Positions 23,584 through 35,543 of a stretch of 35,543 nt of DNA are shown piece by piece. A program made the translations under genes and the position numbers. The DNA is from Myxococcus sp. (lineage in GTDB: Bacteria > Myxococcota > Myxococcia > Myxococcales > Myxococcaceae): NCBI GenBank assembly GCA_014879945.1, contig JACSRE010000224.1, positions 1 to 35,543 of the forward strand. The letters run 5' to 3'. Within the stretch, counting starts at the first letter, position 1; each line of letters starts with the position of its first letter. The notes beneath the pieces are model-generated. The model searched no databases. It saw only the letters and a list, made by a program, of their open reading frames with translations, and was not told where the DNA came from.

Positions 23584-25419
23584 ATGCGCGGGAACGGGTC
23601 CTCGATCTTCCCGACTCACACGCGGCCAGAGCCCTGGGTTCTGGCTGGCGTGGTGGCCATCGCGGCGGTGCTCACTGGGTGCGGGCCGACCAGCCGCACC
23701 ACGCTCCTGAACCTCGGCGACCCCTGCACGCCTGGCGACACGTTCGCTGAGTGCCGCGACGGGCTCTGCATCGCCCTCGACAGCCAGTCTGGCTTCTGCA
23801 CCAGCCAGTGCACCGACGTCTGCCCCGACGGCTTCGTCTGCGAAGGGGCAGGGCGGTACGGGCGCATCTGCAAGGCGCTGTCGGGCTGCAAGACCAACGT
23901 CGACTGCCCCGCCGGCCACACCTGCAACCCCGAGACGGGCAACTGCTACATCCAGGTGTCGCGCGCGCTCTGCTCTCCCTGTCAGGACGTCTCGCAGTGC
24001 CCGACCGGCGGCGCGTGCTTCAAGGCCATCGGCTCGGGCGAGCAGTTCTGCACCGGGCCCTGCGGCGCCGCCGACGCGTGTCCCTCGGGCTCGACGTGCC
24101 GCGAGATCCCCGCGGGGAAGGACAACGCGCTGGTCAAGCAGTGCGTGCCGGCGAACGAGACCTGCAACGCCGGCCGCGCCCTCTGCGACGCCTGCGCCGG
24201 TGACGACGAGTGCGGGGGCCCGTTCGATCTGTGCGTGCGCAACATCGTCTCGAACGAGACCTTCTGCGGCCGCGACTGCAACCCGGCGAAGAACGTCTGC
24301 CCCATGCCGGGCTGCGACCCGAAGCGCCTCGACAACGCGCAGAACCCCGAGTGCCCCTCGGGATTCTCGTGCGTGAACCTGAAGTCGCCCGCGGCCGAGG
24401 GCGGCCTGGGCCCGTACCAGTGCGTGCCCAACTCGAACACCTGCAAGGGCTACTGCGATCCGCTCCGCGATCAGGGCCAACTGTCGAACCAGTGCGGCAT
24501 CGGCCGGCTCTGCCAGGGCGGCACCTGCCAGCCGGCCCTCGACGGGCGGCAGTGCGCTCCGTGCAGCAACAACGACGACTGCCGCCGCGGCGGGTTCACC
24601 GAGAACCGCTGCATCGTCAACGACTGCCCCAGCTGCCCCTTCAAGGGCGAGTCGTTCTGCTCGACGCCGTGCCTCGATGACAACGCCTGCGTGCGCTCCT
24701 ACGGCACCGGCTTCGTCTGCAAGGACGTGACGGACCCGACCGGCCCCACGCGGAAGTACTGCATGCCGCAGCGGGGCTCGTGCAAGGGCGGGCTCAAGCG
24801 CCTGGGCGAAGACTGCAACGCCAACGGGGCCTTCGACTGCCTCACCGGCGTGTGCGTGAAGGCCGGCGTGAACGCGTTCTGCTCCAACACCTGCACCCAG
24901 GACACGCAGTGCGGCGACAACCGCTACCGCTGCTGTGAGTCGTCGCCCACCGGCTACGACTGCTCCCCCGACAAGCGCAGCGCGACCGGCCCCGCGAGCG
25001 GCTCGGGCGTCTGCGCGCCCATCGGCGGGCTGTTCGGCGACGACTGCACCCCGGGCCGCCCGCCGTGCCAGTCGGGCACCTGCCTCGACCTCGGCACCGC
25101 CCGCGTCTGCAGCGTGACGTGCCCGGCCGGCACCTGCCCCATGGGCTTCTCCTGCCGCAAGGCCCAACGGAGCACCGCCTCGGATCAGACCGTCGACGTC
25201 TGCTTCCCTTCGGGCGGCGGCGGGGCAGGGGCCAGCTGCACCTTCGGCCCGGCCGCCTGCGAGACCGGCCTCTGCATTCGCAAAGACTCAGGCCCCATCT
25301 GCACCCAGCCCTGCACCGGCGACCCCGACTGCCCCGAGGGGTGGACCTGCGACACCCTCGCCACCGTCGACAGCCGCTCCGTTCAGGCCTGTCTGCCGCC
25401 TGCCCTGCAGGAAGGTTGA
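23584..25419 (+). CDS. Cysteine-rich repeat lipoprotein
   Basis: The 611-residue protein has a lipoprotein signal (AIAAVLTGC, Cys33) and 77 cysteines by direct count. They recur in units of the form CxxDxxCPxGxxC, for example CKTNVDCPAGHTC, CQDVSQCPTGGAC, CSNNDDCRRGG and CTGDPDCPEGWTC, so it should be a rigid, multi-disulfide, surface or periplasmic lipoprotein. AGGAGA at 23570-23575 is a good ribosome binding site, 22 nt after rplC. It stands at the head of the gliding-gene group and may be a surface partner of the vWA lipoprotein. A relation to M. xanthus gliding lipoproteins such as CglD is possible but I cannot show it. Confidence 0.85.
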   Translation: MRGNGSSIFPTHTRPEPWVLAGVVAIAAVLTGCGPTSRTTLLNLGDPCTPGDTFAECRDGLCIALDSQSGFCTSQCTDVCPDGFVCEGAGRYGRICKALSGCKTNVDCPAGHTCNPETGNCYIQVSRALCSPCQDVSQCPTGGACFKAIGSGEQFCTGPCGAADACPSGSTCREIPAGKDNALVKQCVPANETCNAGRALCDACAGDDECGGPFDLCVRNIVSNETFCGRDCNPAKNVCPMPGCDPKRLDNAQNPECPSGFSCVNLKSPAAEGGLGPYQCVPNSNTCKGYCDPLRDQGQLSNQCGIGRLCQGGTCQPALDGRQCAPCSNNDDCRRGGFTENRCIVNDCPSCPFKGESFCSTPCLDDNACVRSYGTGFVCKDVTDPTGPTRKYCMPQRGSCKGGLKRLGEDCNANGAFDCLTGVCVKAGVNAFCSNTCTQDTQCGDNRYRCCESSPTGYDCSPDKRSATGPASGSGVCAPIGGLFGDDCTPGRPPCQSGTCLDLGTARVCSVTCPAGTCPMGFSCRKAQRSTASDQTVDVCFPSGGGGAGASCTFGPAACETGLCIRKDSGPICTQPCTGDPDCPEGWTCDTLATVDSRSVQACLPPALQEG

Positions 25420-25507: not shown

Positions 25508-26962
25508 ATGCGCGCGTCTGCTGTCAAGCTGGTGGTTCTGCTGGCCTCGTTCGGCGTGGCGGTCTCGGCGTGTCAGGATCGCCAGCGCACCAGGCGGATC
25601 ATCGAGGCCTTCACCGTCGTGCCCGGCACGCCGAGCGTCGACGAGAAGGCTCCCGAGGTCGCCATCGACCCGACGCGCGCGACCGACAACTTCGCGGTGA
25701 ACGTGCCGCGCCAGTGCGACACCTTCACCCAGCTGTCGGTGCGAAAGGTCGACATCCTCTGGGTGGTGGACTCGTCGGGCTCGATGGGGCCCAAGCAGCA
25801 GCGCCTGGCCGCCAACTTCCAGGGCTTCATCAACCAGCTCGTCTCGGCGATGCCGCCCATCGACTTCCACATCGCCGTCACCACCACCGACACCGACGAC
25901 CCAGCGACCCGTGGCCGCCTGCGCCCGTGGACCCTGGCGGCGCTGCGCGACGACTTCATCTCGTGCGCGCCCGACATGCAGGGCACGGTGACGTGCAACA
26001 CCGGCGGCAGCACCTTGACCGCGGAGATGGCCTTCAGCCAGATGGCGCAGGTCGGCACCTCGGGCAGCCCCCAGGAGCGCGGCTTGTTCGCGGCCTACCT
26101 GGCCCTCACCAACCCGATCAACATCTCGACCGAAGCGGTCGTGCGCTTCGTCCGGCCCGAGGCCGCCCTCTACGTCGTCTTCGTGTCCGATGAAGATGAC
26201 GCCTCGTGCACGCCGCTGACGCGCCAGCCGGTGTGCACCGCCGACCCGGGCTGCCGGTGCGCGAACGATCAGATCCTCACCGCGGCCGGCAACTGGGGCT
26301 CGTCGGACTACTTCGTGCGCTTCTTCGAGACGTACAAGGGCTACGGCAACGGTGACGCGGTCGCCGTGGCGGCCATCACCGCCATCAACCCTGACGGCGG
26401 CGTGCCCTCGCAGTTCGGCGACCCGAGCCCGCACGTCGGGTGTTGCCGCAACCAGCGCGCTCCCGACGCCGGGTGCCCGACCAGCGGCACCAACGACGGC
26501 GGGCTCGAGATCGCCTACTTCGGAGGCCGCTACGTGCAGGTCGCCGCGCAGACGGGCGGCGTCTCGGTCGACATCTGCCAGGACGACTTCTCGGGAGCGC
26601 TCGCCTCGCTCGGCTTCTCGGCCTCGGGACTGCGCCGCGAGTTCCGCCTCACGCGCGGCCCCGATCTGCGCCCGCTCAACGGCGTGGCGCGTGGCCTCGA
26701 GGCCTTCGTGTCGCCGCCGGCGTCGATGATGTGCACGGTCGACGGCAACTGCCCCGTCGATCAGTTTTGCCGAAACAGCCGTTGCGCCCGGCGCGTCGAG
26801 GTGCGCACGGATGGCCCCATGAACGGCGCGCAGTACGTGCAGTGCGATCTCGCGGGCCTGCGCAACATGGTCCGCTTCGAGGGCACCTCGGTGCCCGAAT
26901 CCTTGAGCACCGTCGAGGTCTGCTACGACGTGCTCGCGAACTTCCAGACGAGCTGTCCTTAG
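25508..26962 (+). CDS. vWA-domain outer-membrane lipoprotein, CglB-like gliding adhesin candidate
   Basis: The 484-residue protein has a lipobox AVSAC (Cys22) and a von Willebrand A domain from about residue 80. The metal-ion-dependent adhesion site is intact at Asp88-x-Ser90-x-Ser92 (VDILWVVDSSGSMG), with a later acidic strand end LYVVFVSDEDDAS around Asp228. About 20 cysteines are spread over the rest, suggesting disulfide bracing. In M. xanthus the gliding adhesin CglB is a cysteine-rich lipoprotein with a vWA domain exposed at focal adhesions. This gene lies 12 nt before two Glt-type beta-barrel genes, which supports a similar job. Orthology to CglB rather than another vWA lipoprotein is inference. 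No clear ribosome binding site precedes ATG 25508. Confidence 0.75.
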   Translation: MRASAVKLVVLLASFGVAVSACQDRQRTRRIIEAFTVVPGTPSVDEKAPEVAIDPTRATDNFAVNVPRQCDTFTQLSVRKVDILWVVDSSGSMGPKQQRLAANFQGFINQLVSAMPPIDFHIAVTTTDTDDPATRGRLRPWTLAALRDDFISCAPDMQGTVTCNTGGSTLTAEMAFSQMAQVGTSGSPQERGLFAAYLALTNPINISTEAVVRFVRPEAALYVVFVSDEDDASCTPLTRQPVCTADPGCRCANDQILTAAGNWGSSDYFVRFFETYKGYGNGDAVAVAAITAINPDGGVPSQFGDPSPHVGCCRNQRAPDAGCPTSGTNDGGLEIAYFGGRYVQVAAQTGGVSVDICQDDFSGALASLGFSASGLRREFRLTRGPDLRPLNGVARGLEAFVSPPASMMCTVDGNCPVDQFCRNSRCARRVEVRTDGPMNGAQYVQCDLAGLRNMVRFEGTSVPESLSTVEVCYDVLANFQTSCP

Positions 26963-26974
26963 AACCGGGGTGTC

Positions 26975-27760
26975 ATGAGTATTCGAAACGTGTTCCAGGT
27001 GAGTGCGCTGTCGCTGGTGATGCTGGCCAGCAGCGCGTGGGCTCAATCGGCTGAAGACGAGGCCGAGGTCGTCGAGAAGGTGGCGGTGCGCAACCGCCTC
27101 TTCATGGTCGAGAAGCGCTGGGAGGTCGGCGGCAACGTCGGCTTCACGCTGCTGCCCCGGCTGACCGACCACTACAACCTGAACGTGTCGGTCGGGTACA
27201 ACGTCGCCGAGTGGCTCGGCCTCGAGTTCCGCGCTGGCTACGCCATCTCGCGCCAGACCTCGCTCGCCGATCAGGTGAAGCAGGCGTTCCTCTCGCAGAT
27301 GAACCTGCCGCGCATCAACGACTTCTCCGACCTGTGGCAGATGACCGCCAACGGCGTGGTGGGCGTTCGGTTTCAGCCCATCTACGGCAAGCTGAACCTG
27401 CTGGCCGAGCTGCCCGTGCACTTCCAGCTCTACTTCTGGGCGGGCGGCGGCGCGGGCCTCTTCAACCGCGAGTCGCTGCTCATCTGCCTGCAGCGCACCG
27501 GCAGCGGCTGCGGCCAGTACTTCACCGAGACGAAGGTGAGCCCCATCGTCTCGCTGGCGCTGGGGTTCCGCTTCTTCATCGTCGAGAAGCACGCGGTGAA
27601 GCTCGAGGCGCGCACCTGGTCGTTCCTCGACTCGTACTGGGTCAACGTCGATCGCGCGAACGTCAGCGCGGCCAACCCCACGGCGGGCGGCATGCAGTCG
27701 ACCAACGCCGGTGTCAGCACCATCAGCCAGATCGATCTCGGCTACAGCTTCGTCTTCTGA
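26975..27760 (+). CDS. gltB: Outer-membrane beta-barrel protein, GltB-like
   Basis: The 261-residue protein has a signal peptide (VSALSLVMLASSAWAQ) and then alternating amphipathic strands typical of a small outer-membrane barrel (LNVSVGYNVAEWLGLEFRAG; KLNLLAELPVHFQLYFWAGG). It ends in a terminal phenylalanine (DLGYSFVF), the signal for barrel insertion. It resembles the myxobacterial OMP_myx_plus barrel family. In M. xanthus the order gltK-B-A-C encodes the outer-membrane part of the gliding complex. Being the first of two barrels directly before a GltC-like gene, this is assigned GltB by position. Two cysteines (LLICLQRTGSGCGQ) probably lie in one extracellular loop. Confidence 0.7.
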   Translation: MSIRNVFQVSALSLVMLASSAWAQSAEDEAEVVEKVAVRNRLFMVEKRWEVGGNVGFTLLPRLTDHYNLNVSVGYNVAEWLGLEFRAGYAISRQTSLADQVKQAFLSQMNLPRINDFSDLWQMTANGVVGVRFQPIYGKLNLLAELPVHFQLYFWAGGGAGLFNRESLLICLQRTGSGCGQYFTETKVSPIVSLALGFRFFIVEKHAVKLEARTWSFLDSYWVNVDRANVSAANPTAGGMQSTNAGVSTISQIDLGYSFVF

Positions 27761-27775
27761 GGAACGTCAAACACC

Positions 27776-28879
27776 ATGCGCACGACTCTCCTCCTTGCAG
27801 CCCTGTTCTTCGTCGCCAGCCCGGCCTTCGCGGCCTCGCCGGTGGTGGTGCCCTCGCTCGTGCTGAGCCAGGCGACCACGCCGCCCGCCGACGACGATGA
27901 AGAAGATCCCGCTCCGGCCGCGGACCCCAAGCCTGCCGAGCCGGGCACGACGGCGACGACCCCGGCCGCCGCCACCACGCCCGCGGCCACCACGGCGCCG
28001 GCCGCCGCCACGCCAGCGCCTGTCGCGTCGACGGAGCAGATGAAGCTCGTCAACGGCGCGCCGCTCTTCAACCCCAACGTCGGCGTGCACATCGTCGAGC
28101 AGAAGCGCTTCTCTGACTCGGGCCGCTTTGAGGTGACGCTGTACCCGGTCTCGGTGCAGGTGAACGGCAAGTTCACCCAGCACTTCGGCACCATGGGGCA
28201 GCTGACCTACCACCTGCAGGAGAACTTCGGCCTGATGGTGACGGGCGGCGGCAACTGGTTCAACTCGGAGTCGTCGCTCAACGGCGAGCTGGTCGAGAAG
28301 GCCCGCGTCGAGGCGCAGGCGGCCTCGTCGCTGCTGTGGACCTGGGGCGTGATGGGCGGCGTCGAGGTGACGCCGTTCTACGGCAAGTTCGCCTTCTTCG
28401 AGGGCACGCTGGCCCAGTTCTCGTTCGTGCTCAACGGCGGCGCCGGCATCGGCGGCACCCGCCACCAGCTCAAGCCCGAGAGCGCCCGCACCGACGGCTC
28501 CATCTCGCCGGCCACCTACGGAGACACCGGCTACCGGTTCATGGCCGGCCTCGGCGCCGGCTTCCGCCTGCAGCTCGGCTCGCGCTTCGCCTTCCGCCTC
28601 GAGGTGCGCGACGTCGTCTACACCGCGCGCGTCGAGCGGGTGAACGGCTGCGGCGTCGATGATCTGCGCGCGATGGACAACGCCTTGCGCGGCGGTCGCC
28701 TGGTCACCAGCGCCATGACGGGGGCAGGGTGCCGCGTAGACACCTTCGATGGCACCGACCCCGAGACGGGCCTCAAGCGCTCCAACGACGTGCCGCTCGC
28801 GCTCGGCCTCGTCCGCAACCCCTCGTCGGACGCGCTCAACAACGTCGGCCTCTACGCCGGCATCTCGTTCCTGTTCTGA
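27776..28879 (+). CDS. gltA: Outer-membrane beta-barrel protein, GltA-like
   Basis: The 367-residue protein has a signal peptide (MRTTLLLAALFFVASPAFA) and a low-complexity Asp/Glu then Pro/Ala/Thr linker (about residues 33-86). A barrel of alternating strands follows (FEVTLYPVSVQVNGKF, AFRLEVRDVVYTARVER) and closes with the terminal Phe of AGISFLF. The linker is unusual for a porin-like protein and would lie in the periplasm, where it could contact GltC or peptidoglycan. A cysteine pair (VNGCGVDD, GAGCRVD) is probably in a loop. It starts 15 nt after the first barrel gene. GltA and GltB partner with GltC in M. xanthus; which barrel is A and which is B is assigned by gene order only. Confidence 0.7.
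   Translation: MRTTLLLAALFFVASPAFAASPVVVPSLVLSQATTPPADDDEEDPAPAADPKPAEPGTTATTPAAATTPAATTAPAAATPAPVASTEQMKLVNGAPLFNPNVGVHIVEQKRFSDSGRFEVTLYPVSVQVNGKFTQHFGTMGQLTYHLQENFGLMVTGGGNWFNSESSLNGELVEKARVEAQAASSLLWTWGVMGGVEVTPFYGKFAFFEGTLAQFSFVLNGGAGIGGTRHQLKPESARTDGSISPATYGDTGYRFMAGLGAGFRLQLGSRFAFRLEVRDVVYTARVERVNGCGVDDLRAMDNALRGGRLVTSAMTGAGCRVDTFDGTDPETGLKRSNDVPLALGLVRNPSSDALNNVGLYAGISFLF
27962..28011 (+). repeat. Low-complexity repeat in the gltA-like linker
   Basis: The 14-mer CCGGCCGCCGCCAC occurs at 27962-27975 and again at 27998-28011, in frame, within the Thr/Pro/Ala-encoding linker. Such a tract can change length by slippage, which would alter the spacing between signal peptide and barrel. Confidence 0.6.
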
Positions 28880-28894
28880 TCGGTGACCATCAAC

Positions 28895-30433
28895 ATGACT
28901 CGCGCACTCACGCTCGTTGCTCTGCTCACCGGCCTCGTCGCCTCGGCGCAGGACCTGGCCACCTACAACAAGGCGCTGTCGGCCTACAACGGCAGCTCGT
29001 TCGAGGACTCGGCGAAGCTCTTCTACGACGTCTACAACACCACCACCGACAACGACTTGAAGCTGAAGGCCGAGTACTACCTGGCCTCGAGCTTTCAGCG
29101 GCAGAACCTGCCGTTCACGGCGTTCGTCTTCTACAGCCCGATCTTGAAGGCCGGCCCCGCGCACCCGTTTCACGGCAAGGCGGTCGAGGCGCTGGTGACG
29201 CTGCAGGAGCAGCTCAACGACGACTACCTGATCCCCTCGCAGCTCAACAACCTCTACGACAAGTTCGCCGAGGCCTGGGCCACGCTGCCGCTCGAGGTGC
29301 TCTCGCGCATCAACTACCTCATCGGCCGCATCGCGCACCGTAAGGGCAAGCTCGACGAGTCGAAGCAGTTCCTCGAAGCCGTTCCCGACACCAGCCAGGT
29401 CTACGCCAAGGCGCTCTACCTGCAGGGCATCGCCCTGTCTGATCCGCGCTACCCGGCCAGCAGCGAAGACGAGAAGCGCAAGCACCAGGAAGAGGCGGTC
29501 GAGATCTTCGAGAAGGTGATCAAGATCGACCCGCGCGCCAAGATGATGGACCTGGCCGAGATTCAGCAGCTCGCGACGCTCGGCCTCGGCCGCGTGCAGT
29601 ACGGCCTGGGCAACTTCGACAAGGCCGTGAAGGCCTACGAGAAGATCCCCCGGTTCTCGAAGTACTGGGACCAGTCGCTGTTCGAGAACGGCTTCGCCCG
29701 CTTCCAGAACGATGACTACGGCGGTGGCCTCGGCTCGCTCCAGGCGCTCTATGCGCCCCAGTTCGCCGGCGCCTTCCAGCCCGAGTCGTGGGTGCTGACC
29801 TCGACCATCTACTACTTCGCCTGCCTCTACGAGGAGTCGAAGTCGGCGCTGCTGGAGTACGAGAACATCTACCTGCCGCAGGCCGAAGCGCTCAAGAAGC
29901 TCGTCGAGGGCGAGGCCAAGGACAACACGTTCTACTTCAAGCTCGTCGAGACCAGCGACTCCGACAAGCTGCCCCGGCCGGTGATGAACTGGGTGCGCTC
30001 GAACGAGCGCATGCTGGGCCTGTTCTCGATGCTCAAGGCCATCGACTCCGAGAAGGTGACCATCGACGGCATTCAGTCGTGGAAGAGCGCGAAGCTCTCG
30101 GGCGAGCTCATCTCGTACCTCGATCAGAACCGGGGCACCCTCGAGCAGGTCGCCGGGCAGACCGCCAAGAACCGCATTCAGGAGGCCTACCGCACCATCA
30201 AGGGCTTCGCCGACCAGGCCGAGATCATTCGCTTCGAGGTCGCCAAGGCCGAGAAGGAGTTCGCGGAGTCGGGCAGCGATCAGGGCTCGGTGCTGCGCAA
30301 GCAGACGCTCTACCGGCCCTCGATGCCGGCCGAGAACTGGAACTACTGGAAGTTCCAGGGCGAGTTCTGGCGCGACGAGATCGGCTACTACCAGTACACC
30401 CTCAAGAAGGGCTGCCCGGTCGGCAAGAACTGA
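28895..30433 (+). CDS. gltC: Periplasmic TPR protein, GltC-like
   Basis: The 512-residue protein has a signal peptide (MTRALTLVALLTGLVASAQ) and an all-helical body with tetratricopeptide-like pairs (TLGLGRVQYGLGNFDKAVKA, LKLKAEYYLASSFQRQNLPF, IGRIAHRKGKLDESKQF). In M. xanthus GltC is the periplasmic TPR partner of the barrels GltA and GltB in the gliding complex. Length, predicted location and position directly after two barrel genes all fit. ATG 28895 is preferred over an in-frame GTG at 28883 because it begins the signal peptide and has GGTGA about 8 nt before it. One cysteine near the C-terminus (KKGCPVGKN) stands almost alone. Confidence 0.8.
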   Translation: MTRALTLVALLTGLVASAQDLATYNKALSAYNGSSFEDSAKLFYDVYNTTTDNDLKLKAEYYLASSFQRQNLPFTAFVFYSPILKAGPAHPFHGKAVEALVTLQEQLNDDYLIPSQLNNLYDKFAEAWATLPLEVLSRINYLIGRIAHRKGKLDESKQFLEAVPDTSQVYAKALYLQGIALSDPRYPASSEDEKRKHQEEAVEIFEKVIKIDPRAKMMDLAEIQQLATLGLGRVQYGLGNFDKAVKAYEKIPRFSKYWDQSLFENGFARFQNDDYGGGLGSLQALYAPQFAGAFQPESWVLTSTIYYFACLYEESKSALLEYENIYLPQAEALKKLVEGEAKDNTFYFKLVETSDSDKLPRPVMNWVRSNERMLGLFSMLKAIDSEKVTIDGIQSWKSAKLSGELISYLDQNRGTLEQVAGQTAKNRIQEAYRTIKGFADQAEIIRFEVAKAEKEFAESGSDQGSVLRKQTLYRPSMPAENWNYWKFQGEFWRDEIGYYQYTLKKGCPVGKN

Positions 30434-30459
30434 CGTCCGCTGAGGGGGAACGCGGCGCC

Positions 30460-30483
30460 GCCTCCCCGTGTTCGTGGGGAGGC
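30460..30483 (+). terminator. Hairpin in the gltC-gltD gap
   Basis: A perfect 8-bp GC stem, GCCTCCCC (30460-30467) and GGGGAGGC (30476-30483), with an 8-nt loop starts 27 nt after the gltC-like stop. No T-run follows, so it may be an mRNA-stabilising or partial-termination element that separates expression of the two halves of the cluster. The remaining ~140 nt before gltD must contain its own promoter if termination is complete; I see no strong -35/-10 pair there. Confidence 0.4.
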
Positions 30484-30626
30484 ACGCAACACTCAAGAAA
30501 CGTTCGCGTTTCGCAGAGCCGGCGCCCGCTGGCTCCCTTTCATTCGATCAAACGCGTGGTGTAGGGTCCGCGCGATTTTGCCGACCTGGTCGGCGCCGAG
30601 CCTGATTTCTATTTGAAGGAGTTTCG

Positions 30627-33600
30627 ATGAAGTCTTACGCCCGCCTGCTCACCGTCTCAGCTGCCGCGCTGCTGCTGATTCCCTCGACCGCTCCTGCCCA
30701 GGCCAAGAAGGGCGCCAAGCCGGCCGCCGCCAAGACCGAGCCCAAGCCCGACCCGAAGAAGGTCGAGGCCGCGAAGAAGCCCGAGGAGCGCAAGGGCCCC
30801 GCCAAGCTCGACGCGCGCGCCCAGTCGACGATGAAGGCCGAAGACGTCGAGCGCGAGGCCACCGCCGACAAGAAGCGCGACGAGCAGATCGAGAGCGCGA
30901 AGAAGATCATCCCCAAGATCGAAGACGGCAACCCGCAGAAGTCCGAGCTCCTCTTCCAGCTCGCCGAGCTCTACTGGGACAAGTCGCGCTACCTCTACCG
31001 GCGCGAGATGCTGAGGTTCTTCGAGCAGCAGAAGGAGATGGACGAGAAGAAGAACCGCGGCGAGAAGGTCGCCGAGCCCAAGGAAGATCACCGCGAGTCC
31101 GAGCTCTACCGCTCCGAGACGATGCGCCTGTACGAGACGATCCTCCGTGAGTACCCGTCGTACGAGCGCAAGGACGAGGTGCTCTTCAACCTCGCCTACA
31201 ACCTCTACGAGACCAACAAGCGCGACGGCGCGGTGAAGCGCTACGAGGAGCTCCTCAAGTCGTACCCGGGCTCGAAGTTCGTGCCCGACACCTACGTGCA
31301 GCTCGGCAACCACTACTTCGACGTGGCCAACGTGCTCGAGAAGGCGCGCAGCTACTTCGAGAAGGCGTACGCCACCGCCAACCCGCGCATCAAGTCGTAC
31401 TCGCTCTACAAGCTGGCCTGGTGTGACTTCAACGCCGGCGAGCACGAGAAGGCGCTCAAGAAGCTCCAGGACACGGTGGCCCTCGCCGAGAACAGCGGCA
31501 AGGATCGCGTCTTCACCGATCTGAAGAACGAGGCGCTCCAGGACTCGGTGCGCATGTTCGTTCAGCTCAACCGCGCCGACGACGCCATCGCCTACTACAA
31601 GGCCAAGGCGGGCAAGAAGAAGCAGACCAGCCTCATCGGCAAGCTCGCCTACGCGCTCGCCGACGCCGGGCACCACGACAACGCGATCAAGTCGTTCCGG
31701 TACCTGCTCAACGACAACCCCAACGCCGAGTCGGCGCCCGAGTTCCAGCAGTCGGTGATCCGCTCGTACGAAGGCCTGCGCCAGCGCGACAACGTGAAGG
31801 CCGAGGTGAAGAAGCTCGCCGAGCTCTACCGCCCGGGCTCGAGCTGGTGGGAGGCCAACAAGTCGAAGAAGGACGTGCTGCGCGCCGGCTTCAACGTCGC
31901 CGAAGAGGCCATGCGCACCACCGTCACCGAGTACCACAACGAGGCGCAGAAGACGAAGCAGGTGGTGACGTACCGCCTCGCGCGCGACATCTACAAGCAG
32001 TACGTCGACGGCTTCGCGTCCTCGGAAGACGAGCAGTTCGTCTCGGACCACGCCTTCAACCTGAAGTTCTACTACGCCGAGATCCTCTGGGCCCTCGAGG
32101 AGTGGGAGGCCGCGGCCGCGCAGTACGACCAGGTCACCGCCTTCAAGATCCCCGGTCGCCCCGACGCCAAGGAGATCGCGCAGGAGAAGTACCGCCAGAC
32201 CGCCGCCTACAACGCGATGCTCTCGTACGACAAGCTGGTGAAGATCGAGCGCGGCATTCTGCAGAAGACCGACCTCAAGGACGACAAGCTCGTCGAAGAG
32301 AACAAGAAGAAGGACAAGGTCGAGAAGTCGAAGAAGGTCACCAAGCGCAGCATCAAGGAGCTCGAAGAGAAGCCCATCACCAAGTTCGAGCAGGCCCTGA
32401 TCGCCGCGTGCGACAAGTACAACCAGCTGTACCCGAAGACGGCCGAAGAGGTCGACATCGCCTACCAGGCGGCCGTCATCTATTACGACAAGAACCACTT
32501 CGTCGAAGCCGCGCGCCGCTTCGGTGACATCATCAACAAGTACCCCGAAGAGGCCCGCTCGGCCGACGCCGCCGACCTCTCCATGGGCGTGCTCGAAGAG
32601 AAGGAAGAGTGGCTCGAGCTGAACAAGCTCTCGCGCATCTTCAAGGCCAACGAGAAGCTGATGAAGAAGGCCAAGCCCGACTTCGTGGCGCGCGTGGCCA
32701 CCGTCGTCGAGGGCTCGCAGTACAAGTACATCGACGAGGTCGTCTACAAGAAGGAGAAGGACACCAGGAAGGCGCGCGACCTCTTCCTCGAGTTCACCAG
32801 GGAGTTCCCCAGGTCGAAGAACGCCGACCGCGCGCTCGTGTACGCCATGGAGGTCTCGCGCGAGGCCAACGAGCAGGACAAGTCGATCGAGATCGGCGAG
32901 CGCATCTTGAAGGAGTACCCGAACTCGATGTTCGACCTCCGCGTGAAGAACGGCCTGGCCTTCTTCTACGAGAAGGTGGCGAACTTCGAGAAGTCGGCCG
33001 CGATGTACGAGAACTTCATCGCGACCTACGACCTCGCGGCCGGTGACAAGGCCATCGGCTACGAGAACATCAAGGAGCTCATCAAGAAGGAGCGCGAGGC
33101 GAAGGAGAAGGAGGCCAAGGCGAACAAGGGCAAGCCCGCCCCGAAGGACGCGCCGGCCGCCATCACCACCTTCGTCATTCCCACCAAGGGTGACGACGCC
33201 GCGGCGCTCAAGACCGAGCGCGAGGCGCAGATCAAGGCCGCCGCCGACTGGGTCGCCGACGCGCAGTACAACGCCGGCTTCTGGTACGAGGGCATCGGCA
33301 AGTTCGACAAGGCGCTCGCCGCCTACGGCCGCTACGTCGCGCGCTTCAAGGACAAGAAGGACGCCCCCGACATCGCCTTCAACATCGGCCTGGTGCTCGA
33401 GAAGACCAACCAGCTCGCCGAGGCGACCAGGACCTACGACGCCTACCTGACGACCTACGCCAAGGATCCACGCGTCACCGACACCCGGAAGCTCGACGTG
33501 AAGTACCGCCAGTTCCTGATCGCGCAGAAGCTCAAGGACAGCGCGACCATGGACCGGCTCGCCAAGGACATCACGGCGTCGTTCCCGAAGCTGAAGGAAG

Positions 33601-34253
33601 AGGAGCGCAAGAACGACCGCGCCATGCTCGCCGCCGCGCACACCCGCTTCTACCAGCTCGAGCCCGCGTGGAACGCGTACCTGGCGCTCAAGCTGAAGAA
33701 CTTCGCGACCTTCAAGAAGGACCTCGCCGAGAAGCAGAAGAAGCTCACCGAGATGGAGAAGAACTTCACCGAGGTGCTGACCATCGGCAACCCGGACTAC
33801 GGCATCGCCGCGCTCACCCGCATCGGCTTGCTGTACTCCGACCTCGCGGTGAACCTCACCGAGCTGCCTGACCCCAAGGGCTTCGACGAAGACCAGGTCG
33901 CGCTCTTCCGCGGCCAGCTCGAGGAGCAGTACATCTTCCCCCTCGAAGAGAAGGCCGTCGAGGCGCTCGAGAAGGCCCTGGTGAAGTCGAGCGAGCTGAC
34001 CCTCTACACGGACTGGACGCTGCTCGCGCAGGACAAGCTCAACAAGTACAAGCCCGGCAGCTACGGCAAGACGCGCGACGTCTCGTACCGCGGCAGCGAG
34101 TTCTTCGTGACGTCGGGCTTCGAGAAGCAGCCCCCCGCCAACGACGCGCCGCTGCCCACCGAGGCCGAGCCCGCGAAGCCCGCGGTCGCGCCGACGCCTG
34201 CTCCCACCCAGCCGAGCGCCGCCGCCACGGGCGCTGGCGCCGGTAGCCGCTGA
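30627..34253 (+). CDS. gltD: Giant periplasmic TPR protein, GltD (AgmU)-like
   Basis: The 1208-residue protein has a signal peptide (LLTVSAAALLLIPSTAPAQA), a Lys/Pro/Ala-rich linker (to about residue 60) and then an almost continuous array of TPR-like helix pairs to about residue 1150. Examples are EVLFNLAYNLYETNKRDGAV, LGNHYFDVANVLEKARSYF and AQYNAGFWYEGIGKFDKALA. It finishes with a Pro/Ala/Thr tail. In M. xanthus GltD (AgmU) is a periplasmic gliding protein of about 1200 residues encoded directly before gltE, which matches length and order here. AAGGAG at 30616-30621 is the best ribosome binding site of the cluster. The charge pattern, very rich in Lys and Glu, is the reason for a long false reading frame on the other strand. 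Confidence 0.85.
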   Translation: MKSYARLLTVSAAALLLIPSTAPAQAKKGAKPAAAKTEPKPDPKKVEAAKKPEERKGPAKLDARAQSTMKAEDVEREATADKKRDEQIESAKKIIPKIEDGNPQKSELLFQLAELYWDKSRYLYRREMLRFFEQQKEMDEKKNRGEKVAEPKEDHRESELYRSETMRLYETILREYPSYERKDEVLFNLAYNLYETNKRDGAVKRYEELLKSYPGSKFVPDTYVQLGNHYFDVANVLEKARSYFEKAYATANPRIKSYSLYKLAWCDFNAGEHEKALKKLQDTVALAENSGKDRVFTDLKNEALQDSVRMFVQLNRADDAIAYYKAKAGKKKQTSLIGKLAYALADAGHHDNAIKSFRYLLNDNPNAESAPEFQQSVIRSYEGLRQRDNVKAEVKKLAELYRPGSSWWEANKSKKDVLRAGFNVAEEAMRTTVTEYHNEAQKTKQVVTYRLARDIYKQYVDGFASSEDEQFVSDHAFNLKFYYAEILWALEEWEAAAAQYDQVTAFKIPGRPDAKEIAQEKYRQTAAYNAMLSYDKLVKIERGILQKTDLKDDKLVEENKKKDKVEKSKKVTKRSIKELEEKPITKFEQALIAACDKYNQLYPKTAEEVDIAYQAAVIYYDKNHFVEAARRFGDIINKYPEEARSADAADLSMGVLEEKEEWLELNKLSRIFKANEKLMKKAKPDFVARVATVVEGSQYKYIDEVVYKKEKDTRKARDLFLEFTREFPRSKNADRALVYAMEVSREANEQDKSIEIGERILKEYPNSMFDLRVKNGLAFFYEKVANFEKSAAMYENFIATYDLAAGDKAIGYENIKELIKKEREAKEKEAKANKGKPAPKDAPAAITTFVIPTKGDDAAALKTEREAQIKAAADWVADAQYNAGFWYEGIGKFDKALAAYGRYVARFKDKKDAPDIAFNIGLVLEKTNQLAEATRTYDAYLTTYAKDPRVTDTRKLDVKYRQFLIAQKLKDSATMDRLAKDITASFPKLKEEERKNDRAMLAAAHTRFYQLEPAWNAYLALKLKNFATFKKDLAEKQKKLTEMEKNFTEVLTIGNPDYGIAALTRIGLLYSDLAVNLTELPDPKGFDEDQVALFRGQLEEQYIFPLEEKAVEALEKALVKSSELTLYTDWTLLAQDKLNKYKPGSYGKTRDVSYRGSEFFVTSGFEKQPPANDAPLPTEAEPAKPAVAPTPAPTQPSAAATGAGAGSR

Positions 34254-34279
34254 TTTCGACGAGAGACCAAGGACCGATC

Positions 34280-35543
34280 ATGAAGCTCCGCATCGCAGCC
34301 CTCACCATCGTCGCATCGTCCGCGGGCCTCTCGGCTTGCGTCACCACCCAGGCCGAAGAGAAGAAGGACGTCGTCGTCGCGCCGCCGCCTCCTCCGAAGG
34401 TCGCCAGCCCGAAAGAGAACTTCGACAAGGGCGTGGCCGCCTTCGACGCCAACAACCTCGACGAAGCCAACACGCTCTTCACCAAGGTCGCCGAGAAGGT
34501 GCCCACCAGCGTCGTGGCCCAGTACAACCTGGCCGTCATCGCCGAGCGCCAGGGCCGGCTCACCGACGCGCAGGTCCGCTACGAGGCCGCGCACAAGCTC
34601 GACCCCAAGCACAAGCCGACGCTGCTCAACCTCGGCCGCGTCTACCGCCTGCAGGACAAGTTCGCCGAGGCGATCGCGCTCTACGAAGAGGCGCTCAAGG
34701 ACAACGAGTTCGACGTCGAGCTGAACAACAACCTCACCGTCGCCTACCGCCTCGCGAAGAACTACGCCAAGGCCGAAGAGACGGCCCGCCGGGTGCTCCA
34801 GCGCACCAAGGACAACCCCGACGCGTACAAGAACCTCGCGCTCATCTACTTCGATCAGGGCAACTACCGGCTCGCCGAGTTCATCTCGGCCAACGCCAAG
34901 AAGCTCGATGACAAGGATCCCGGCGTCTACAACAACCTCGGCCTCATCTACCTGAAGCTCGACGAGAAGCGCTTGGCGCTCGCGCAGTTCCAGAAGGCCG
35001 TCGCGCTGAACAAGGACTTCGCGCCCAGCCTCTTCAACATCGGCGCGATGGCCCTCAGCTACCGCGACTACGTCACCGCCGAGAAGTCGCTGGGCCGCAC
35101 CACCGAGGTCGACCCGACCCGGTACGAGAACTTCCTCGCCTACGCCTGGTCGCTCGATGGCCAGAAGGGCAAAGACGCCAAGAAGGGCATCAAGGCCGGT
35201 GAGGTCTTCGAGAAGGTGCTCTCGCTCAAGCCCGAGCAGAGCGACGCGCTGTGCGGCGCCGGCTGGGCCTACGCCGCCGACAAGACCGGCTGGGACCGCG
35301 CCCTTGAGTACTTCCAGAAGTGCAAGGCGCTCCCGACGACGACCCCGCAGGAGCAGACCCTCATCGACAACAAGGTGAAGGGCATTCTCGCGATGCAGAA
35401 GTCCGGTCAGCCGGCCGCCCAGCCCCCCGCCGAGAAGCCCAAGCCGACCGGCACCGGCGGCCCGTCGATGCTCGACAAGGCCGAGAAGGAGGCCGAGAAG
35501 GAGGCCCCGACGCCTGCCGAAGGCACGCCCGCACCCACGCCCT
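34280..35543 (+). CDS. gltE: TPR lipoprotein, GltE (AglT)-like, cut by window edge
   Basis: The open frame from ATG 34280 runs 421 codons to the window end without a stop. It has a lipoprotein signal (VASSAGLSAC, Cys20) and a Pro-rich linker (VVVAPPPPPK). At least six canonical TPR units follow, for example VAQYNLAVIAERQGRLTDAQ, PTLLNLGRVYRLQDKFAEAI and PGVYNNLGLIYLKLDEKRLA. A disordered tail of Pro/Ala/Lys with DKAEKEAEKEAPTPAE comes last. GltE (AglT) in M. xanthus is the TPR lipoprotein encoded next to GltD. AAGGA about 6 nt upstream supports the start. gltF-J homologues would be expected to the right. Confidence 0.85.
   Translation, partial: MKLRIAALTIVASSAGLSACVTTQAEEKKDVVVAPPPPPKVASPKENFDKGVAAFDANNLDEANTLFTKVAEKVPTSVVAQYNLAVIAERQGRLTDAQVRYEAAHKLDPKHKPTLLNLGRVYRLQDKFAEAIALYEEALKDNEFDVELNNNLTVAYRLAKNYAKAEETARRVLQRTKDNPDAYKNLALIYFDQGNYRLAEFISANAKKLDDKDPGVYNNLGLIYLKLDEKRLALAQFQKAVALNKDFAPSLFNIGAMALSYRDYVTAEKSLGRTTEVDPTRYENFLAYAWSLDGQKGKDAKKGIKAGEVFEKVLSLKPEQSDALCGAGWAYAADKTGWDRALEYFQKCKALPTTTPQEQTLIDNKVKGILAMQKSGQPAAQPPAEKPKPTGTGGPSMLDKAEKEAEKEAPTPAEGTPAPTP

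Follow-up and report, generated by a model that had tools for sequence, protein, structure and literature searches.

Gene content of the block

The stretch of DNA analysed here, referred to as the window, is an entire contig of 35,543 bp (C6 in our numbering) from a 7.7 Mb myxobacterial genome in 448 contigs, deposited as Myxococcus sp. (GCA_014879945.1). Its right-hand part carries a block of genes for an envelope-spanning machine, which the original prediction had read as a gliding-motility (glt) locus, gltB-A-C plus gltD-E, joined to an adhesin gene. Open reading frame and family checks of the window recovered, from position 25,508 to the contig end, the six plus-strand genes in a row that had been proposed, encoding a lipoprotein with a von Willebrand factor A (vWA) domain, two outer-membrane barrels, a tetratricopeptide repeat (TPR) protein, a giant TPR protein and a TPR lipoprotein. 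The limits of the run had to be redrawn, since the conserved block begins two genes before the vWA gene, with rplC followed by a Cys-rich lipoprotein gene, and its last gene runs off the end of the contig.

All members of the block lie on the plus strand. The conserved left border is rplC, encoding ribosomal protein L3 (22893..23561; TIGR03625, 256 bits). Next come the gene for the Cys-rich lipoprotein of 611 amino acids (23584..25419; lipobox LTGC), the strict partner of the vWA gene, and the vWA gene itself (25508..26962), whose product of 484 amino acids presents a VSAC lipobox and the DSSGS motif of a metal ion-dependent adhesion site (MIDAS) and is a putative surface ligand-binding component. 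The two barrels, at 26975..27760 and 27776..28879, matched TIGR04565 with 118 and 65 bits (cut-off 60 bits). They are followed by a periplasmic TPR protein (28883..30433), a giant periplasmic TPR protein of 1208 amino acids (30627..34253) and a TPR lipoprotein whose 3′ part is missing (34280..35543). From the vWA gene onwards, the intergenic gaps measure 12, 15, 3, 193 and 26 bp. This gene order was found repeatedly across the order Myxococcales, indicating that the arrangement is not due to chance.

Assignment of the machine genes to nfs

As reference nfs cluster we used the M. xanthus locus that best matched the giant TPR protein of the window (L121). This locus reproduced the published distances between nfsB and nfsC (23 bp), nfsC and nfsD (214 bp) and nfsF and nfsG (55 bp), and also the TTG start of nfsF with an ATG as third codon and the convergent downstream gene (PMC2875238), while two of its gaps departed from the published values (nfsE-F, 214 vs 207 bp; nfsG-H, 153 vs 152 bp). 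When compared with this cluster, barrel 1 showed 40% identity to NfsA and barrel 2 50% to NfsB, so the two barrel genes follow the A-B order of nfs and not the B-A order of glt that had been predicted. The remaining proteins were 48% identical to NfsC, 49% to NfsD (over 1228 columns) and 49% to NfsE. The window and M. xanthus nfsA-H (MXAN_3371-3378, cluster G3) therefore share the order A-B-C-D-E, the protein types, 40-50% identity, an upstream rplC and a large gap between C and D. In sister genomes of the window the order continues with nfsF and nfsG after nfsE and then with unrelated genes; GltI and GltJ do not follow.

In contrast, the labels GltC and GltE proposed for two of these proteins did not hold. 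Against the NCBIfam equivalog models, the periplasmic TPR protein scored 228 bits for GltC (cut-off 450) and the TPR lipoprotein 120 bits for GltE (cut-off 225); in the latter, which is incomplete at its C-terminus, the match stops at residue 349, well ahead of the cut. Other copies in the same genome passed both cut-offs, with 913 bits for GltC on contig C19 and 570 bits for GltE on C363, which makes the window copies paralogues. Identities of the window proteins to the GltC, GltD and GltE of their own genome were only 25%, 28% and 32%, respectively. The genome contains four gltD-like genes, on C6 (the window), C363, C295 (adjoining mglBA) and C394, and M. xanthus likewise has four such clusters, G1 (glt), G3 (nfs), G4 and G5 (PMC3169522). 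In a tree of 49 D proteins, NfsD, GltD, G4 and G5 formed four groups, each on one side of a branch with support of 99-100 in the Shimodaira-Hasegawa-like approximate likelihood ratio test (SH-aLRT), and the window protein fell inside the NfsD clade (SH-aLRT 99), apart from GltD. The M. xanthus glt genes (G1, MXAN_4870-4862; G2, MXAN_2538-2541), together with aglRQS, make up a paralogous transducer built from the same types of component as the block; the D and E proteins of the window are each 28% identical to M. xanthus GltD and GltE and belong to a different clade.

The gliding machinery of this genome was located on other contigs. Besides GltC on C19, we found GltD, GltE, GltF and the start of GltG on C363, GltJ on C328 (569 bits) adjoining a 4086 amino acid protein of GltI size, and AglRQS orthologues on C342 with 71, 58 and 69% identity to those of M. 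xanthus. A tandem pair on C395 (G000:C395:32199-34580) resembled the probable CglB, with 42% identity each. The CglB query, a lipoprotein of 417 amino acids with DTSAS, was picked out in a genome of Myxococcus type from its map position and its size, and its assignment is accordingly probable rather than certain. More generally, the assignments of CglB, AglRQS and gltI are based on where the genes lie, how long their products are, what adjoins them and their orthology to M. xanthus, and not on annotated records. The canonical glt/agl set and a CglB-like gene lie elsewhere, and the block is not the gliding locus. Judged from sequence, its five machine genes correspond by orthology to M. xanthus nfsA-B-C-D-E, which is the paralogue of the gliding system that serves the spore coat, and the block is an nfs locus of the G3 type.

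Additional features were observed around these systems. Further CglB-like genes lie on C372, C213 and C304, while M. xanthus gave one match. The cluster on C394 (L024), of G5 type, represents the fourth GltD-like system; it includes two small lipoproteins and is found in conserved form from M. xanthus as far as family f9. The rplC of the block is the sole L3 gene of the genome (a single match in a genome search), so that the only rplC is the first gene of the nfs block, away from the other ribosomal genes. Of 74 de-duplicated loci with sufficient flanking sequence, 56 show this neighbourhood, M. xanthus included. NfsD-like loci adjoining rplC were also present in bins labelled Bdellovibrio sp. 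and Deltaproteobacteria (L157, L159), of which the Bdellovibrio label may be a misassignment.

The Cys-rich/vWA lipoprotein pair

Unlike the M. xanthus cluster, the window carries the Cys-rich and vWA genes between rplC and nfsA. We determined the distribution of this pair in 74 de-duplicated nfs loci with at least 8 kb of upstream sequence. Both genes were present in 21 loci and both absent in 53, and no locus carried one alone. In every bearing locus the pair sat directly upstream of nfsA. The bearers belong to seven family-level groups: the genus of the window with nearby lineages of its family, part of f3, and f5, f6, f7, f9 and f10. The conservation of the arrangement across these groups supports two proposals of the original prediction, namely that the genes form one envelope-spanning unit and that the vWA lipoprotein belongs with the barrels. 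The pair was absent from all assessable loci of named Myxococcus, Corallococcus, Pyxidicoccus and Hyalangium and of species-named Archangium, in which rplC or other genes adjoin nfsA.

The possibility that the pair had moved elsewhere in M. xanthus was rejected, because the Cys-rich protein had no match in that genome and the vWA protein had short vWA-domain matches only, which points to absence and not to relocation. The Cys-rich protein also had no match in a second Myxococcus-like genome (G012) or in the searched genomes of f2 (G008, probably Anaeromyxobacter), f4 and f8. In the genome of the window and in G048, the orthologues of both lipoproteins are single and located at nfs. On the NfsD tree, the presence or absence of the pair requires six changes; this number cannot separate gain from loss, and it fits a single gain at the root of Myxococcales and relatives with several subsequent losses. 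Within the family, the vWA tree has largely the branching of the NfsD tree, which is consistent with shared descent of the two proteins. A literature search, which did not cover subscription papers, returned no report of the pair. Thus, the Cys-rich/vWA pair, with its strict pairing and patchy absence, constitutes a real variant of the nfs locus that is apparently undescribed.

Regarding the proteins themselves, the Cys-rich lipoprotein had no Pfam or NCBIfam match and shows dozens of invariant cysteines across 14 orthologues. Among 16 orthologues of the vWA lipoprotein, C22 of the lipobox and S90 and S92 of the MIDAS were invariant, and D88 was kept in at least 90%. The AlphaFold model of this protein (mean predicted local distance difference test score of 77) found its best structural matches in integrin I domains (Z 15.9, 187 residues, 3.1 Å), and its C-terminal part was beta-rich; a PDB sequence search with the vWA profile found nothing. 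According to the model, the vWA lipoprotein has a vWA fold with a DxSxS metal site, a shared fold that does not show function. CglB (MXAN_3060), the gliding adhesin, is likewise an outer-membrane lipoprotein with a vWA domain, and the window protein is proposed to serve the paralogous transducer. We rejected its identification as CglB itself, since the two share no significant pairwise similarity and C395 carries a separate orthologue of the probable CglB (42% identity); the original reading of a CglB-type adhesin fails in terms of descent. The vWA/MIDAS region also gave distant matches to CglD and to the Bdellovibrio MIDAS-family adhesin Bd0875, with scores far below the cut-offs (46 bits against 400 for the CglD model, 61 against 700 for MIDASAdhsBdello) and with a different architecture and genomic context.

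Proposed role of the pair and history of Nfs

In M. xanthus, AglRQS drives Nfs, which moves coat glycan around the spore, and NfsA and NfsB depend on each other for stability and also stabilise NfsC (PMC3858216, PMC4488436). In the gliding system, GltC is lost when GltA/GltB are missing. We consider it probable that the block is an nfs locus with two added outer-membrane lipoproteins that form the ligand-gripping outer end of an AglRQS-driven transducer. In such a machine, the outer-membrane barrels NfsA and NfsB, the periplasmic TPR proteins NfsC and NfsD and the TPR lipoprotein NfsE, together with NfsF and the FHA inner-membrane protein NfsG encoded beyond the contig end, would reach across the envelope. 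As in M. xanthus, Nfs would be driven by the AglRQS proton motor and would thereby move surface cargo along the cell. The Cys-rich and vWA/MIDAS lipoproteins, presumably co-transcribed with the machine genes, exposed at the surface and in contact with NfsA/B, would grip a ligand as CglB does in gliding. Candidate ligands are a coat or exopolysaccharide polymer, or a substrate. Most likely, the vWA protein would represent the surface ligand-binding end of an older Nfs, lost once Nfs became committed to wrapping the spore coat.

Several observations weigh against this proposal. M. xanthus Nfs works without either lipoprotein, and the part that the two would play in Nfs function is putative. The vWA-family lipoproteins are numerous in the genome, which makes the adhesin argument less specific. 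Moreover, M. xanthus nfs ends in nfsH, whereas the sequence after nfsG yielded no NfsH homologue in the genus of the window (L054 16170, L056 16072); an acyl-CoA-dehydrogenase-like gene directly follows nfsG there, at the place where related genera have nfsH, and the Nfs complex may be incomplete or altered in this genus. Finally, this uncultured host may not form spores, and a spore-coat role of the locus is putative there.

Other explanations were weighed against the same evidence. A gliding locus joined to its adhesin, as originally predicted, would share the protein architecture and a similar gene order, and the remote hits to the GltC and GltE models would fit it as well. Joined glt clusters do exist: G1 and G2 are grouped together in Anaeromyxobacter (PMC3169522), and we found joined clusters in three f2 genomes (probably Anaeromyxobacter), in G048 of family f6 and in G001 of f10, the last of which lies outside the order. 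Nevertheless, the missed equivalog cut-offs, the phylogeny and identities pointing to Nfs, and the canonical glt/agl set and CglB-like gene on other contigs make this reading very improbable; the best matches of the window genes lie in a different system, although a paralogous and not an unrelated one. These precedents also mean that joining itself, which the original prediction had stressed, is not new, and for nfs the joined order is ordinary, given that an unbroken A-H order defines the published cluster (PMC2875238, PMC3858216).

The two lipoproteins might instead constitute a two-gene system of their own that merely lies between rplC and nfsA and does not work with Nfs. The loss of the pair as a unit while nfs stays would agree with this, and the unrelated rplC is just as well conserved beside them, which shows that being adjacent does not by itself prove joint function. 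In contrast, the constant position directly upstream of nfsA (12 bp away in the window), the single orthologues at nfs in the two genomes mentioned above and the lack of a Cys-rich orthologue in the searched genomes whose nfs lacks the pair argue for a functional connection, and sibling systems use vWA outer-membrane lipoproteins, CglB and CglD in gliding (PMC4488436). We regard an independent pair as rather unlikely, and rate it no lower because rplC shows that long-lived neighbours at this locus need not share function. Slightly less doubtful, yet still tentative, is the idea that the vWA-bearing Nfs is a vegetative machine for surface adhesion or transport, possibly locomotion, whose spore-coat role would be a later specialisation of the Myxococcus branch that dropped the pair. 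None of the named fruiting genera (Myxococcus, Corallococcus and named Archangium) carries the pair, and its spread over seven family-level groups suggests an older age. However, the pair was also lost in f4, f8 and some members of f3, which have no known link to fruiting.

The NfsD tree also bears on the age of the system. The nfs/glt pair has been attributed to a recent duplication (PMC3858216). We found both clades together in members of several families and also in another order of the class (L271, L249, L262-L264), indicating that nfs and glt separated before the sampled families split, and the duplication thus looks older than stated. A window locus predating the nfs/glt split was rejected on similar grounds, as its genome and its relatives hold both clades. 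In the f2 genomes, only the joined glt is kept and nfs was not detected.

Agl-Glt and Agl-Nfs serve as the textbook example of a single motor that powers two cargo machines. A possible but unlikely scenario is that Nfs in the ancestor of Myxococcales was a surface-transport machine of adhesive type that had an integrin-like vWA lipoprotein and its Cys-rich partner built in and worked beside the gliding machine, and that the spore-coat function arose after the adhesive end had been discarded. That Nfs occurs in a widespread older form equipped with a vWA lipoprotein of its own points to an operon that once included the cargo-gripping end, and the vWA-bearing Nfs opens a route to asking what Nfs did before spore coats.

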